From positions 186,001 to 250,000 of the forward strand of contig JAJZUP010000003.1 of NCBI GenBank assembly GCA_021848465.1: a stretch of 64,000 nucleotides of DNA. The letters run 5' to 3'. Made by a program: the position numbers and the translations under genes. The notes beneath the pieces were generated by a model. That model was not told the origin of the DNA and did no database searches. It saw nothing but the letters and a program-made list of their open reading frames with translations. The stretch is from Pseudomonadota bacterium. Its GTDB lineage: Bacteria > Pseudomonadota > Gammaproteobacteria > Burkholderiales > Gallionellaceae. The first letter of the stretch is position 1. Each line of letters begins with the position of its first letter. Below are positions 15,629 to 26,372 of this stretch, piece after piece.

Positions 15629-15650
15629 CAACTACTGAATGGAGTGCTAC

Positions 15651-15875
15651 ATGAAACTGCTGTCCACCCTGATCGCTGCTGTTTTCGCTGTTGTTTCGTT
15701 CTCCGCTGCCGCTGCTGACGCTGCTCCTGCTGCTGCCCCTGCTGCCAAGGCAGAAGCTGCTGCTCCTGCTGCTGAAAAGGCAGAAGCAAAGCCAGTCAAG
15801 AAGCACAAGAAGGCACACAAGGCCAAGAAGGCTAAGAAAGCAGAAGCAGCAGCTGACGCTCCAGCAGCCAAGTAA
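15651..15875 (+). CDS. Small Ala/Lys-rich exported protein
   Basis: 74 residues. A clear signal peptide (MKLLSTLIAAVFAVVSFSAAAA, cleavage near residue 22) precedes a low-complexity mature part. An Ala/Pro/Glu stretch is followed by a strongly basic KKHKKAHKAKKAKK core and an Ala-rich tail. ATG 15651 is chosen because GGAG lies 8 bases upstream; the ATG at 15639 overlaps that SD. It has its own terminator. Composition recalls acid-shock (Asr-like) or other small basic periplasmic proteins, but no domain is recognisable and the function is unknown. Confidence 0.75.
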   Translation: MKLLSTLIAAVFAVVSFSAAAADAAPAAAPAAKAEAAAPAAEKAEAKPVKKHKKAHKAKKAKKAEAAADAPAAK

Positions 15876-15891
15876 TTCTGCTGTTGTGCAT

Positions 15892-15921
15892 AAAAAGGCA
15901 GGGGCAACCCTGCCTTTTTTG
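15892..15921 (+). terminator. Rho-independent terminator after the Ala/Lys-rich gene
   Basis: Arms AAAAGGCAGGG and CCCTGCCTTTT around a GCAA tetraloop, continuing into a T-rich run. It lies about 17 bases after the stop codon. Confidence 0.9.
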
Positions 15922-15942
15922 TTTTTCGTTTAAAATACTGCC

Positions 15943-20052: not shown

Positions 20053-20065
20053 TCGCTTCAGGCAA

Positions 20066-20100
20066 ATAAAAACGGGGCTGCGTTGCAGCCCCGTTTTTAT
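20066..20100. terminator. Bidirectional terminator between purB and the convergent exported-protein gene
   Basis: ATAAAAACGGGGCTGC and its complement, with a two-base loop, giving a long GC stem with T runs on both strands. It serves purB (plus) and the 20113-20511 gene (minus). Confidence 0.92.
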
Positions 20101-20112
20101 TGGATAAGAGCT

Positions 20113-20511
20113 TTATTTTGCGGGTTGCAGCGCCGCCAGCGCCTGATCCGCATCCTTGCGCAGGGTACTATCCGGATAGGTGGTCACAAATTCGCTGAAT
20201 GCCGCCTGTGCCTGGCTGGTCTCCCCGGCTGCCGCCAGATCGGTCGCTTTCTTGAAAGCCGCCAGCTCATCGGCATCAATCTCGGTGCGGTGGGCTTCGC
20301 CCTTCCAGTAGATGTCATTCGCATCCGAAGGCGCACCGCGTACACCACCGACAGCATTCGTCACCCCGATTTTTTTCTGGGGCACAAAGCCTTCAATCTT
20401 CTTGCGCAGCATTTCCCAGAAACTCATGTTGCCGGAACCCGCATCCGCCGCATACAGCGCCGGAGCGGAAAGCATCGATACCGCAAAAAACAATAAGACG
20501 ATTTTTTTCAT
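20113..20511 (-). CDS. Small exported protein (last gene of the cyclase/NHL operon)
   Basis: 132 residues with a signal peptide (MKKIVLLFFAVSMLSAPALYA, cleavage near residue 21). The mature part has WEMLRKKIEGFVPQKKI, a GVRGAPSDANDIYWKGE stretch and a C-terminal helical pair with TPR-like spacing (AAAGETSQAQAAFSEFVTTYPDSTLRKDA). ATG 20511 is preceded by GAGGAG. It follows the large NHL/transglutaminase gene by 23 bases and ends at the shared terminator. No named family recognised; it may be a periplasmic partner of the big protein. Confidence 0.8.
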   Translation of the reverse strand: MKKIVLLFFAVSMLSAPALYAADAGSGNMSFWEMLRKKIEGFVPQKKIGVTNAVGGVRGAPSDANDIYWKGEAHRTEIDADELAAFKKATDLAAAGETSQAQAAFSEFVTTYPDSTLRKDADQALAALQPAK

Positions 20512-20534
20512 GGCATTCTCCTCGCGTAAATACA

Positions 20535-23500
20535 TCACAATGTATTGCTCAATTCCAGCCCAAGCGCCTTGTATTTCTTCTTGATACCGGGATCCAGGTT
20601 TTGTGCCTTCATATAGGCGTCCTTGGCTTCCTTGAACTGCTTAAGCGCTTTATTTGCCTTGGCCAGGTTGATCCAGATGTAGGGATCATCCGGGCTGGCA
20701 CGGGACGCTTCCAGATACGCCTTCTGCGCCTCGCTGTACTGGTCGTCAATCATGTAGAGATTGCCGCGGTTGTTCATTGCAGCCGCATTGTTCGGCTGCA
20801 ATGAAAGCACCTTGTCGAAATATTTCATAGCCTCGACGCGATCGGCCATTTTGGCCAGCGTAATGCCGATCTGCAGGTAGGCATCGGCATCGGAAGGATT
20901 CTTCTCGATACGCTGATGGTAGTAACGCGTCCTGGTCTGCGAGCTGATTTTCAGCATGGCGGTAAACTCGCCGGGGAACTGTTTTTCGACTTCATCCTTG
21001 TTCACCTCGGCCGGCTTCCACTTTGCCTCCTGCAGGCTGGCGGGCTTGTAGGTTTCCCATGCCTGTTGCACATCCAGCAGGGTCAGCCCCTTGTCTTTCC
21101 ATTTATAGTAAGCAGCCGCGCCAAGCTCCCAGGCTTTGACGAACGACTTGCCAACCGCTGTCGTTTCTACCGGTATCCACAGCTTGCCCTGGTAGATGAC
21201 GTACATGTCGTCCATGGTATAGCCATCCGCATCGGCGTCCACGCCGGTGGAGAACATCATGAACATATGGCCCGGCACTTCGATCACGCGCGTGGCGATC
21301 CCCATGCTTTCCAGCGCCGAGGTATAGAACGCCACCAGGTCGTCGCAGTCGCCGGATTTACGCTCCAGCGTTTCGCGCGGGAACTGGATGTAGTCCACGG
21401 TATCGACCTTGCCGGAGGTAACCTGATACGGATTGGCCGGGTCGGGGATATAGGTCAGGCCATACACACCCAACGCATTGAACACGATAGCTGCCAGTTG
21501 CGACTCGTCCTTCACCTCTTTGTACTGGGTCGCCACCGAGCGGACGAACGCCAGCACCGGCGTATCCTTCGGCGTAATGAACGAGGCATAGCGTCCGCCT
21601 TCGTCCCACAGCAGTTTGTGCTTTTCATATACGTTGACGGTCAGGGTCTTGCTGTACGACTCGCGCTTGCCGTTGTCGAAGTAGCTGGCCTCCAGCATGG
21701 TCTGCACCGCAGTGTCTTCGGTCACGTTAAGAATATTGTTGTTGAACACCGCCTTGAGCTTGATGTCTGCGCTCTGTCCGGGCGCCAGCTTGTCGAGCTT
21801 GCTCTCGGTGGCGAAATCCATGAACTCGTTCACCTTGAACGAGAAGGTCACGCCTTCCATCATCTTGTTGGTGTTGTTGGTCAGACGTACCATGCCCAGA
21901 CCATCATCCTGATACAGCTTGTAGGTATTGGAAAAAATGGGGCGCACCTTCAGGACTTCGATTTCCAGCGGCGCCTTGCTGAATGCCGGCGTGGTCACGT
22001 CCACCTGGTATTTTTCGCCCTCGGTACCGTCCGAGCTGTGCGCCGCCACGTAGTAGGTGTACTTCGTATTGGGAGTCAGCCCCTCACGCGTATATTCCGG
22101 GGTCAGCACTTCCCCGATTTTCGCAGCTGTGCCGTTGGCGTCCTGCTGGTAGATATAATACGAGTTGACGAACTCGGACTGGATTGGTTTCCAGCTCAGC
22201 TTGAGCTGCCATGAGGACACATCCACCTGCACACTATCCAGCTTGGGCGGGGTATAACGCCGCGAAACGGCAGACACCGCCGCGCTGGTTGCCCCCTCGT
22301 AGCCGGAGCGTGTTTCCGCAGCAATGCGGTAGAAATACTTGCCTTCCGCCTCCAGTCCGCGATCCACATACTGGTTCGCGGCCAGTGTCGCCACATGGGT
22401 ATAGCCGCTGTTTTCGTCCTTGGAGCGATATACCTGATATTGCTTGATGTACGACCTGGATATGGGCGCCCAATTCAGCGTGATGCTATGCAGGCCGTCC
22501 GTAGCCGCCAGGTTTTGCGGGGCAGCGGGCTTGTATTCGGTCTCGAACGATTGCACGCGCTTGTTGCCACGCTCGGCAACAAGGAACGAGGCATCATCGA
22601 CCAAAGCGATCGCCACGGGCTCGCTGAGCTCGCCCAGTTCGCTCCCCTTGGCCCCAAAGCTGCGCAGGAATTCACCGCCATGGGTATACACCTTTATCTG
22701 GTTGCCATCCGCAACCATCAGCTCATCCGCATTGGCTGTCAGGGCAACCGGACTGTCCAGCGAACCGGGCCGCCCCTCTTTTCCTTCACCAACTTTGCCA
22801 ACCAATGCCCCCTGGTCGGAATAGATCGCCACATAATTCGCCCCTTTGCCGAGCACAAACACATTATCCTGGTCATCCACGGCAATCGACATGGGATTGT
22901 CCAGTTTGCGCACAGCGCGCAAGAACTTGCCGTCACCATCGAAAACCTGGACGGAATCATTGCCACGATCGGCAACAAAGATTTTTCCCGATGAGGCAAT
23001 CACCAGGTCGGTAGGCTCGTCAAATTGCCCATCTCCGGACCCGGCGCTGCCGAAACTGCCCACCATTTTGCCTGCGGCGTCCAGCTTGATTACACGCCCG
23101 CCCTTGTCCAGCACCCAGGCCGCCCCATTCTTGTCGAACGCAACGCTGACCGGCACCACGTCCTTGATGCGGATCTGCCCTTCGACCTTGCCATGCTGAA
23201 CAATGACCAGGGCTTTCTGCTCCGGGTCCACACCATAAAAGCCATCCTTGCCATTCCATGCCAGCTTGCTGGCCAGTATCTGGTATTGCCCTGTGCTTTT
23301 CGCAAAAGGGCGCGATGCGGCATGAGGAACCGGCTCCAGTGCCACGCCCTGATCCGCCGCAAAATAATCGACCACGCCCTTGCGCACATCCGCTACGAGC
23401 ACCTGCTTGTCCTGCAGCGCAACCATGCCCGACCATGAACTGAACTGTCCTTCCGCATCGCCGCCCATGCCAAAGCGATACATCAGGTGATTGTTGAAAT

Positions 23501-24263
23501 CATATTTGTGGATCGACAGGTCGGAATTCTTCGCGAGATACACCCCGTCCCGCGCAATGGCAAACCCCAGTAATGCCCCTTCGTCCGGCAAGGCGCGGAC
23601 AAACACACCATCGGGGGTATACACCTTGACCAGGAAATCGTCCTTGTCCAGCACGTAAATACGCCCCGCGGCATCCAGCTTGATGTCGACCGGGGTACGC
23701 AACTTGTATACCTCAGACGATTTATTGGGGGCCGGTTTCAGCTCCAGCGCCCCGGCAAACACGCCATTCACGCCAAACATCATGATGCGCCTGGAGCCCC
23801 CATCCAGGACATACACCACACCCTCGCGCACCGCGACCCCAAGCGGCTTATCCAGCTCGGCTGCCGAACTGCCGCCGAACAGCCCGCCCTTTTTCGCGCC
23901 CAGCTTGCCCAGGAATTTGCCGGCAGTCGTAAACATCAACACCTGGTTCAAGTCGCTGTCCGCCACGTATACCACGCCAGCTTCTTCGGTCACCGCCTCC
24001 GGGCGGCGCAATGACACATCACCCTTGGCAGGGAAGGTATGCTGCAACTTCCCGTCCAGGCCGGTTACGGCAATGACCGGATCAACACCGGAAATCGCCG
24101 CGAAATACAGGTGATCGCCATATCCGGCAAGCAGTTTCTGCCCGCCCCGAATCATGGATGCTGCTTTCACAAACTGGGCCTTTGCCCCTGCCGCATCTTC
24201 TGCCGCGGCAATACCGGAGCCTAACAATCCCAGGCTGCATAGCGCCAGCGCCAGGATGCGCAT
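20535..24263 (-). CDS. Secreted NHL-repeat / fibronectin III / transglutaminase-like / TPR protein
   Basis: About 1242 residues from ATG 24263 (MRILALALCS...), which begins a clean signal peptide; upstream starts at 24287 and 24317 are possible. Numbered on the longest frame of 1261: NHL-type beta-propeller repeats at about 60-595 (recurring FVADRGNDSVQVF, VLDKGGRVIKLD units), Fn3 domains at 598-690 and 692-780, a beta-rich region at 785-900, and a transglutaminase-like domain at about 905-1075 with Cys992 (KSGDCDDLVAFY) and His1018 (EVPGHMFMMFS). The third catalytic position reads IPVETT, Glu instead of the usual Asp. TPRs occupy about 1143-1240. Probably periplasmic or surface-bound. The gene lies 69 bases after the CHASE2 cyclase and just ahead of a small exported protein, so an operon is likely. 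Function unknown. Confidence 0.85.
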   Translation of the reverse strand: MRILALALCSLGLLGSGIAAAEDAAGAKAQFVKAASMIRGGQKLLAGYGDHLYFAAISGVDPVIAVTGLDGKLQHTFPAKGDVSLRRPEAVTEEAGVVYVADSDLNQVLMFTTAGKFLGKLGAKKGGLFGGSSAAELDKPLGVAVREGVVYVLDGGSRRIMMFGVNGVFAGALELKPAPNKSSEVYKLRTPVDIKLDAAGRIYVLDKDDFLVKVYTPDGVFVRALPDEGALLGFAIARDGVYLAKNSDLSIHKYDFNNHLMYRFGMGGDAEGQFSSWSGMVALQDKQVLVADVRKGVVDYFAADQGVALEPVPHAASRPFAKSTGQYQILASKLAWNGKDGFYGVDPEQKALVIVQHGKVEGQIRIKDVVPVSVAFDKNGAAWVLDKGGRVIKLDAAGKMVGSFGSAGSGDGQFDEPTDLVIASSGKIFVADRGNDSVQVFDGDGKFLRAVRKLDNPMSIAVDDQDNVFVLGKGANYVAIYSDQGALVGKVGEGKEGRPGSLDSPVALTANADELMVADGNQIKVYTHGGEFLRSFGAKGSELGELSEPVAIALVDDASFLVAERGNKRVQSFETEYKPAAPQNLAATDGLHSITLNWAPISRSYIKQYQVYRSKDENSGYTHVATLAANQYVDRGLEAEGKYFYRIAAETRSGYEGATSAAVSAVSRRYTPPKLDSVQVDVSSWQLKLSWKPIQSEFVNSYYIYQQDANGTAAKIGEVLTPEYTREGLTPNTKYTYYVAAHSSDGTEGEKYQVDVTTPAFSKAPLEIEVLKVRPIFSNTYKLYQDDGLGMVRLTNNTNKMMEGVTFSFKVNEFMDFATESKLDKLAPGQSADIKLKAVFNNNILNVTEDTAVQTMLEASYFDNGKRESYSKTLTVNVYEKHKLLWDEGGRYASFITPKDTPVLAFVRSVATQYKEVKDESQLAAIVFNALGVYGLTYIPDPANPYQVTSGKVDTVDYIQFPRETLERKSGDCDDLVAFYTSALESMGIATRVIEVPGHMFMMFSTGVDADADGYTMDDMYVIYQGKLWIPVETTAVGKSFVKAWELGAAAYYKWKDKGLTLLDVQQAWETYKPASLQEAKWKPAEVNKDEVEKQFPGEFTAMLKISSQTRTRYYHQRIEKNPSDADAYLQIGITLAKMADRVEAMKYFDKVLSLQPNNAAAMNNRGNLYMIDDQYSEAQKAYLEASRASPDDPYIWINLAKANKALKQFKEAKDAYMKAQNLDPGIKKKYKALGLELSNTL

Positions 24264-24332
24264 CGTTTTTCCCGTCAATCCGTCCATTCTGAAATCCATT
24301 CTGCTATCAATTTGCATCAATTATAAAACCAA

Positions 24333-26372
24333 TCATTTTTCACGGCGATTGAAGACGCCGTCCCAATCGTCAGGCGGCGGTGAATTCTTGAAATGCTCGC
24401 AGCGCTCGATATATATCTTGCATGGCTTATCCTCCGGCACCTCGGCCAAAATCGCAGCAAACTGCTCTTGCGCCTGCTGCCACTGCCGCTCACGATACGT
24501 CTCCAGAGCTGCATTGAAGCGATCAACCATGGCATCATCCATCCCGATCGAAAAACCGGAGGGCTCATAGATGCGTACCGGCATCTGCTTGCCCACCACG
24601 CGAATCCGGTCCAGCTCACGATAATGGCATGAGCCTGCCGTCAAGTCATGCGTGCTGTCGCCCACCAGGAAACTGACCCCGTAAAATTTTGCGGTACTCT
24701 CCAGACGTGCAGCCTGGTTCACCGTATCTCCGATCACGGTGTATTCCATTTTCTTGCCTTCGAAGCCGATGTTGCCGGCCACCACATCGCCCGATTGCAA
24801 GCCACCGCGAATATAGAACGGTTCCTGGCCGGCCTGCGCCCACTTGACGCGCAACTCGGCCATTCTGATGTGCATGGCATGAATACAGGCCAGCGCCAGG
24901 TCGGCATGATGCTCCTGTTTCAGCGGCGCCCCCCAGAATGCCATCAGGCCATCTCCGATGAATTTATCCACCGTGCCATCGAACTGTTCGATGACCTGCA
25001 CCATCTCGCCGAAATACTCATTGAGCCGCGCAACCACTTCCTGCGGCGCACGTCCTTCGCTAAAGGATGTGAAGCCCTTGATGTCGGTGAACAGTACAGT
25101 CACTTGCCGGTTGTCGCCGCCCAGCTTGGCCGCATCCGGATCTTTCTCGAGCCGCGCCACCTGTTTGTCCGACACATAGCTGGAGAATATCTGGCGCATT
25201 TGCCGCGCGTTGCGTTCCAGCACCAGGAAACGGAAGCTCCCGCCCACCAGCAGTGCGATAAATGCGGCCAACGGCGGGAAGATCATGCTGACCCAATGGC
25301 CCTTGAGGAACAGCGCGTAACTGAACCAGACATAGCCGAGCGACACCATCAGCGTAGCAGGCAGCGCCGTATACAGATGCAAGCGCGTGGTCAGGAAATA
25401 GGCGGTCGCTCCGAGCAGCACGATAAACAGAACGTCGAGTGCGGATTCCAGCCCGGTTTGCTGCACAAAACGCCCGCTCAGGATATCGTCGGCCACCGCT
25501 GCATGCACTTCCACCCCCGGAGTATTGCCGTCAAACGGCGTAACGCGCATGTCGTAAATACCCATCGCAGTTGCGCCCACGAACAATATCTTGTCTTTCA
25601 GCAATGCCGGGTCAATGCGCCCTTTGACAATATCGGCAAAGGAATAACGCGGATAGGCGCCGGGCGGCCCGGTAAAATTGATCCACATCGAATAATCGTC
25701 ACTGACGGGTATGTGCCGATCGCCCACCGCAACCTCGTAATTCCCCGGCGTAAAATCCTTTGCGCCAAGAGCCGCCATCGCCCCGACCAGCCCCAATGAT
25801 GGCTTGAACTTGCCATGGTCGTCGATCAGCAGCAACGTGCGCCGGTTGACCCCGTCGCTCTCCGGGAAGAAATTGATATGGCCGACACCGCGCACCGCCC
25901 CCTCGATTTCCGGGATGGAGCCAATCCTCCCGGCAACCCGGAACGAGGTATCAAAATTAAAGGAGGTTGCCAGAAACACATTACCCGCGCGCCGGGCGGC
26001 GGCGGCAAACTCCCGGTCCGCTTTGCTGCTCTCCGGTTCCGGGAAAAACGCATCGAACAAAACCGCCTTTGCCCCATCTCCGGACAACCGATCCAGCAAT
26101 TGCGCATACACACTGCGCGTCCAGGGAAAGCGTCCCAGTTCGGCAATGCTTTTATCGTCGATCGCAATAATGGCAATCTGCGGGTTGGGCGCAATCGCCC
26201 CACGCAGCTTTTTGAAACGCAGGTCATAGGTGCGTGACTCAAAAGCCTCCAGGAACGGATTCTGGGTGTAATACAGCAGCGCCACCGAAAAAATCGAGAC
26301 GGCAGCCAACAGCACCGATATGACTTTCGTTCCCTGCCGGGACGACATCCGCTTCAAGACCGAGAATTCCAT
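24333..26372 (-). CDS. CHASE2-domain adenylate cyclase (class III)
   Basis: 679 residues. TM1 (about 17-35), a periplasmic CHASE2 sensor (about 38-305, with AIDDKSIAELGRFPW and LLKDKILFVGATAMGIYD), three helices (310-385), then a class III cyclase domain (420-605). Metal aspartates are D430 (LFTDIKGFTSF) and D474 (KFIGDGLMAFWG). K541 (KKMEYT) and D549 (VIGDTVNQAARLE) are the pair that selects ATP, so cAMP is the likely product. A C-terminal helical tail (615-679) has TPR-like spacing. First gene of the operon with the NHL/transglutaminase protein, so an external signal may be linked to cAMP. Confidence 0.92.
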   Translation of the reverse strand: MEFSVLKRMSSRQGTKVISVLLAAVSIFSVALLYYTQNPFLEAFESRTYDLRFKKLRGAIAPNPQIAIIAIDDKSIAELGRFPWTRSVYAQLLDRLSGDGAKAVLFDAFFPEPESSKADREFAAAARRAGNVFLATSFNFDTSFRVAGRIGSIPEIEGAVRGVGHINFFPESDGVNRRTLLLIDDHGKFKPSLGLVGAMAALGAKDFTPGNYEVAVGDRHIPVSDDYSMWINFTGPPGAYPRYSFADIVKGRIDPALLKDKILFVGATAMGIYDMRVTPFDGNTPGVEVHAAVADDILSGRFVQQTGLESALDVLFIVLLGATAYFLTTRLHLYTALPATLMVSLGYVWFSYALFLKGHWVSMIFPPLAAFIALLVGGSFRFLVLERNARQMRQIFSSYVSDKQVARLEKDPDAAKLGGDNRQVTVLFTDIKGFTSFSEGRAPQEVVARLNEYFGEMVQVIEQFDGTVDKFIGDGLMAFWGAPLKQEHHADLALACIHAMHIRMAELRVKWAQAGQEPFYIRGGLQSGDVVAGNIGFEGKKMEYTVIGDTVNQAARLESTAKFYGVSFLVGDSTHDLTAGSCHYRELDRIRVVGKQMPVRIYEPSGFSIGMDDAMVDRFNAALETYRERQWQQAQEQFAAILAEVPEDKPCKIYIERCEHFKNSPPPDDWDGVFNRREK

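Follow-up and report, generated by a model that had tools for sequence, protein, structure and literature searches.

A transglutaminase-like exported protein, its small partner and a CHASE2 adenylate cyclase: a candidate envelope system in Gallionellaceae

The locus described here raises the question of whether a CHASE2 adenylate cyclase, a large multidomain exported protein and a small exported protein, which are encoded side by side, belong to one system. The window analysed is a stretch of 64,000 nucleotides (assembly GCA_021848465.1, contig JAJZUP010000003.1, positions 186,001 to 250,000), and within it the three genes lie co-oriented on the minus strand between panD and purB:

24333-26372, minus strand: CHASE2-class III adenylate cyclase gene (679 amino acids; Pfam), whose orthologue is directly upstream of the large gene in all uncut Gallionellaceae loci
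20535-24320, minus strand: gene of the large exported protein, an ORF of 1261 amino acids with a TTG start; likely start 24263
20113-20511, minus strand: gene of the small exported partner (132 amino acids), likely start ATG at 20511; full ORF 20113-20538
20065-20101, minus strand: intrinsic terminator 3' of the small gene, a stem (-25.7 kcal/mol, z -7.5) with a T run behind it

The gap between the cyclase gene and the large gene is 12 bp, counted from the TTG start of the latter, and about 24 bp separate the stop of the large gene from the ATG of the small one. The terminator past the small gene was missed by a generic terminator scan and was found as a stem with its folding energy. A preliminary description of this DNA had spoken of three minus-strand genes with small gaps and one terminator, an arrangement which is borne out by the ORF map and by this stem. 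Elsewhere in the window, at 15647-15933, there are overlapping low-complexity Ala/Leu-rich ORFs on both strands; in L015 and L016 the corresponding genes have similar ORFs nearby.

The source bacterium is of the iron-oxidising type, and the named records of its family are Gallionellaceae (Gallionella, Sideroxydans and Sideroxyarcus). Among the first relatives to be compared, the order cyclase-large-small is present in 8 of 10 loci; in the named collection the full trio is found in 37 of 44 Gallionellaceae loci, that is, in all 37 which are not cut by contig ends, the other seven being on contigs that end within or just short of the large gene. The trio occupies two chromosomal sites, one in the panBCD...purB region and the other upstream of hemA-prfA-prmC. 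The preliminary description had proposed searching for the co-occurrence of homologues of the large protein with CHASE2 cyclases and the small protein, and had counted an unconserved neighbourhood against a joint system; these 37 of 37 loci, the two sites, and the persistence of the large-small pair across phyla are the opposite of such a neighbourhood. In 158 genomes of the family, the catalytic core of the large protein is present in 56 and the small protein (search threshold E below 1e-40) in 54; both are present in 54, the small protein alone in none and the core alone in two. As a genomic association, the partnership of the large and small proteins is all but certain.

The same large protein, with the small partner directly downstream, is found in Nitrospirota and Elusimicrobiota, and in the latter the partner lies within 99 bp in 15 of the 16 loci outside the model-building set (a count that omits L251-L253, which repeat earlier contigs). 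Samples of 246 Nitrospirota, 150 Elusimicrobiota and 247 Spirochaetota genomes contained the core in 14, 24 and 31 genomes respectively, and a single spirochaete genome may have as many as eight matches. The large-small pair is older than the trio. In neither Nitrospirota nor Elusimicrobiota does the cyclase adjoin it, and cAMP therefore cannot be its general output.

The signal peptide of the large protein begins at M20 of the 1261-residue ORF, which gives the length of 1242 amino acids stated in the preliminary description. Its parts are a signal peptide, two beta-propellers, two Fn3 domains, an Ig-like domain, a transglutaminase-like core and TPRs; residues below are numbered on the 1261-residue ORF:

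22527-23315, minus strand: second (NHL) beta-propeller, residues 336-598; residues 292-554 of the structure model resemble the TRIM71/Thin NHL propellers (Z about 33)
20931-21983, minus strand: conserved core, residues 780-1130, Ig-like domain plus putative transglutaminase-like fold; identity 60-79% in Gallionellaceae and 34-40% in other phyla
21345-21347, minus strand: predicted catalytic Cys992 (GDCDD), kept in 79 of 81 homologues
21267-21269, minus strand: His1018 (PGH), kept in 80 of 81
21165-21167, minus strand: Glu1052 (WIPVETT), third triad residue, kept in 80 of 81
20556-20933, minus strand: C-terminal TPR repeats, residues about 1130-1255 (Pfam TPR; helices in the model)

The earlier domain reading (a beta-propeller, two Fn3 domains, a transglutaminase-like fold and TPRs) agrees with the Pfam matches, which comprise NHL, fn3 in two stretches and TPR, together with Transglut_core, whose 20.5-22.9 bits fall short of the cut-off of 23. 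To this reading the structure model (residues 45-1244, 58 homologues, mean pLDDT 90, pTM 0.58) adds a predicted second beta-propeller and, ahead of the putative peptidase fold, a predicted Ig-like domain; it places TPR helices at the C-terminus. Structure searches with this model of 1200 residues returned mostly propellers, and a sequence search of solved structures for relatives of the core gave nothing meaningful.

The preliminary description had placed a transglutaminase-like site at Cys992 and His1018 with Glu in place of the third catalytic Asp, and these positions hold in the 1261-residue numbering. With the three residues kept so nearly throughout the 81 homologues, Cys-His-Glu is a rule of the family and not a degenerate site. 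The same triad is found in nearly all active-type cores of Nitrospirota, Elusimicrobiota and Spirochaetota, making four phyla in total. The order Cys-His-acid, judged from conservation in the alignments, is that of the transglutaminase-like superfamily, and 21 of 27 core members match Transglut_core at E up to 0.1.

Two named families were considered for the core and rejected. The first is LapG (BTLCP, Peptidase C93), for which Pfam scans gave no PF06035 match; PF06035 was also absent when searched for across the source genome, the triad is C-H-E and not C-H-D, and hhalign finds weak similarity around the active site (probability 18-28%). The LapG/LapA/LapD system nevertheless offers several parallels, in that it has a periplasmic transglutaminase-like cysteine peptidase, acidic residues flanking the Cys (D-C-D in the window core, D-C-E in DvhG), a partner with a helix and a small-residue linker motif, and coupling to a nucleotide second messenger. 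It differs in that the third residue of its triad is Asp, LapA is a giant adhesin and LapD a c-di-GMP receptor, whereas the window enzyme is large and multidomain and is paired with a small TPR protein, and a CHASE2 adenylate cyclase takes the place of the receptor. The second family is NCBIfam NF058533, “anti-phage protein ProA”, which is matched by all 27 core members (best E-value 8.4e-19). The window core aligns with residues 15-331 of the 1903 in this model and scores 48 bits, far short of the 1500 required of the whole protein, so membership is not assigned. Among named proteins ProA comes closest, through its N-terminal part, and since the core is homologous to the first 330 residues of ProA, the latter probably has the same peptidase fold. 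To our knowledge, ProA has neither a small partner nor a cyclase.

The small protein consists of a signal peptide, an amphipathic helix, a linker with a VRG motif and a TPR-like C-terminus:

20386-20421, minus strand: amphipathic helix
20335-20358, minus strand: NAVGGVRG motif (residues 52-59), within a linker modelled at low confidence (pLDDT below 50 at 49-57)
20296-20310, minus strand: YWKGE, downstream of NAVGGVRG

Among 49 partners from three phyla, V57, R58, G59 and the later Trp (YWKG) are among the near-invariant residues. The small residues preceding them vary (AVGG, TAAG, AVAA), with no fixed scissile residue; the window copy has AVGG, and many Sideroxydans copies read TTTAAGGVRG, so that TAAG occurs there literally. 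In the model of the small protein, which is of low confidence, the motif is predicted to lie between the amphipathic helix and the TPR-like helices. Pfam gives weak TPR matches, Foldseek with this model gave weak matches to YbgF/BamD-type TPRs only, and assignment to FecR (PF04773) was rejected, there being no domain match and a common VRG motif alone not conferring membership. In LapG substrates the targeting helix docks on the enzyme, whose cleft takes up a [T/A/P]AAG site (PMC13090378); the small protein, as modelled, has a similar order of a helix followed by a small-residue linker. Second copies of the small protein are present in L197-L199 and in L200 (G176:C3), the last of these amid several genes for large lipoprotein-like proteins and distant from any core gene.

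Spirochaetota present a more varied picture. The product of the gene neighbouring the core is often an exported protein whose first half is FecR-like by eye (Pfam returned no FecR match for these neighbours) and which carries a VRG motif, e.g. GPTAVAGVRGKDVS...LNWE, after which the protein either stops at once or continues into TPR repeats. These partners have the motif [A/G]V[A/G][A/G]VRG...W with a Cys-His-Glu core alongside, and with them enzyme-partner pairs span four phyla that are only distantly related. Of 133 ORFs near spirochaete cores, 3 contain the strict form of the motif (0.01 expected from shuffles), versus 0 of 125 far ORFs; this estimate of chance uses only the strict motif taken from other phyla, because a looser VRG-W pattern had been fitted to the very loci that are counted. 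A further case of the motif is L074, and many spirochaete core paralogues have no recognisable partner nearby. Beside the core in L187 (29-2581) is a surface-type protein of 850 amino acids with GLUG motifs, which bears the partner motif SPSATASVRGDIYEEDGVWLDE at its C-terminus. In L172, L173, L174, L175, L185, L186, L187, L279 and L284 an active core (C-H-E) stands in tandem with, and usually adjacent to, a second core whose triad positions read, for example, K-D-S, V-D-S or A-D-S, and the two would appear to form a conserved enzyme/pseudoenzyme pair. Genes for large lipoprotein-like proteins are often found 3' of the core (L189, L190, L191, L193, L194, L185); their products begin alike, with a lipobox-like Cys, then S/N/D, then F/Y, and are possibly clients of the system.

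The two Gallionellaceae genomes that have the core alone, G029 (loci L015/L066) and G035 (L016/L067), bear on the role of the catalytic residue. Their core-only locus is contiguous from panC to purB, the cyclase orthologue is missing along with the small gene, and in both Ser replaces Cys992, a residue missing in these two loci only. The ratio of core dN to propeller dN is 1.26 in this pair compared with 0.24-0.37 in intact pairs; because dS is saturated in the Cys-dead pair, the comparison is confined to the relative dN of the domains. The core, usually the slower of the two to evolve, is here the faster, and its usual extra constraint has been lost. G029 and G035 belong to one genus, and the loss of the Cys together with the partners is therefore probably a single event. 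These Cys-dead, partnerless genomes constitute a natural experiment which ties Cys992 to the partners.

The preliminary reading of the third gene as a CHASE2 adenylate cyclase stands, with both Pfam domains above their curated cut-offs:

25407-26285, minus strand: CHASE2 domain (PF05226, 1.1e-61, 209 bits)
24585-25109, minus strand: cyclase domain (Guanylate_cyc, PF00211, 6.4e-26, 91.5 bits)

The cyclase motifs FTDIKGFT, FIGDG and KMEYTVIGDTVN are conserved, and cAMP rather than cGMP is the predicted product; the source genome encodes eight cNMP-binding domains. In Sinorhizobium meliloti, cyclases belonging to the Clr cAMP cascade likewise combine CHASE2, a transmembrane segment and a class III cyclase domain, and differ in that the abstracts describing them report no transglutaminase-like protein alongside (PMC13001267, PMC5498481).

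The cyclase is the more variable third component of the system and the small protein the most constant partner of the large one. In Spirochaetota, CHASE2 stands beside the core in two loci. In L193 the gene of a FecR-like partner with a degenerate motif overlaps a CHASE2-LuxR gene; in L284 a pseudo-core, a FecR-like exported protein (with no clear VRG), a CHASE2-adenylate cyclase and an active core follow one another with small gaps, and this cyclase is 32% identical to that of the window over 488 amino acids. Non-CHASE2 cyclases adjoin the core in L172 and L174, an adjacency that may be due to chance because such cyclases are common in spirochaetes. FecR proteins adjoining CHASE2 sensors in L214 and L223 carry TPAAVAAVRGT, which resembles the SAVAAVRGA motif of Elusimicrobiota partners; a VRG-bearing FecR neighbour is found in 2 of 29 CHASE2 loci of the same class and is therefore not general for CHASE2. 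An operon in which FecR and CHASE2 proteins control biofilm has been published (BiofilmReg, PA4035 type: a response regulator, a LysM-FecR protein and a CHASE2 histidine kinase), and the signals detected by CHASE2 are given there as unknown (PMC5192318). It resembles the window trio in encoding an exported protein, in its case of FecR type, beside a CHASE2 sensor, and differs in having no peptidase, a kinase output and a full FecR domain with LysM. Together with the TPAAVAAVRGT neighbours, this operon associates CHASE2 with VRG/FecR-type proteins beyond the window locus.

The conserved gene order, the near-perfect interdependence of the large and small proteins and the loss of the catalytic residue along with the partners all support the earlier interpretation of one system, to which the spirochaete operon of core, FecR-like protein and CHASE2 cyclase adds a further instance. 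The reading we favour, and to which we give somewhat less than an even chance, is that the trio is one envelope signalling and processing system in which the peptidase modifies or binds its partner and the CHASE2 cyclase turns the outcome into a cAMP signal. The large protein would be a transglutaminase-like cysteine peptidase of the periplasm or outer envelope, its C-H-E site carried on a propeller/Fn3/TPR scaffold, and the small protein its dedicated partner and probable substrate, exposing the linker [A/G]V[A/G][A/G]VRG...YWKGE between its amphipathic helix and TPR-like end. An envelope or surface cue would reach the sensor domains of the large protein, upon which the core would engage the helix and linker and, by analogy with LapG, probably cut, or else transfer or otherwise modify, the small-residue/VRG stretch; cleavage at the VRG motif may thus be envisaged on the LapG model. 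The CHASE2 domain would then read the state of the partner and change the level of cAMP, which CRP-type regulators would read, the eight cNMP-binding domains of the genome being candidate readers; the role of CHASE2 as reader and the nature of the cue are both conjectural. The matrix binding plus proteolysis or cross-linking suggested earlier for the large protein is similarly putative.

It is also conceivable, although on balance unlikely, that the VRG-W segment serves as a docking peptide, not a cleavage site, and the core as a transamidase or assembly factor, which attaches the small protein or scaffolds a surface structure without proteolysis. The TPR, propeller and Fn3 scaffolds of the large protein, the variable scissile position, the L187 surface protein that ends in the motif, and the L074 core, which by eye is fused behind an apparent outer-membrane barrel, are what one would cite for assembly, but the triad is almost never lost where the partner is present, and the helix and small-residue linker are like those of known cysteine-peptidase substrates. 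Still less probable is an account in which the pair has a general role, as a module for envelope housekeeping or for surface proteins, and the cyclase is merely co-transcribed with it in Gallionellaceae, with no sensing role. Such an account is consistent with the pair having no CHASE2 gene beside it in Nitrospirota or Elusimicrobiota, as is true of the core in most spirochaete loci, but the trio is held as a unit at two sites, the cyclase and small genes are both gone from the Cys-dead genomes, and CHASE2 recurs next to the core in Spirochaetota. An anti-phage function, which the match of every core member to the N-terminal part of ProA might suggest, is highly improbable given the score far under the family cut-off; PADLOC, moreover, has no match for the large or small protein and only generic PycC matches for the cyclase, the locus is single-copy and beside metabolic genes, and a literature search for ProA gave no relevant account. 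That the genes are chance neighbours with no joint function, for which no supporting point was found, has practically no probability, the order being conserved in dozens of genomes of several phyla and the co-occurrence counts already refuting it for the large and small proteins.

No description of a peptidase-partner-cyclase system was found in the literature searched, and a search for FecR with transglutaminase gave nothing relevant. Beyond the processing system favoured for the trio, a wider generalization may be entertained with considerable reserve: that there are widespread, undescribed envelope peptidase-substrate pairs, consisting of a C-H-E core and a partner with the motif AVxGVRG...W, derived from or shared with FecR, which feed CHASE2 sensors. 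If this is true, CHASE2 domains detect a processed FecR/VRG-type periplasmic protein. The core-partner pair, whose hosts include groundwater and iron-cycling bacteria and, with many copies, Spirochaetota, would also add to the transglutaminase-like envelope peptidases a second and independent kind that has its own linear-motif partner. A conserved partner and natural catalytic-dead variants would together provide a direct route to what CHASE2, a common bacterial sensor domain, detects.
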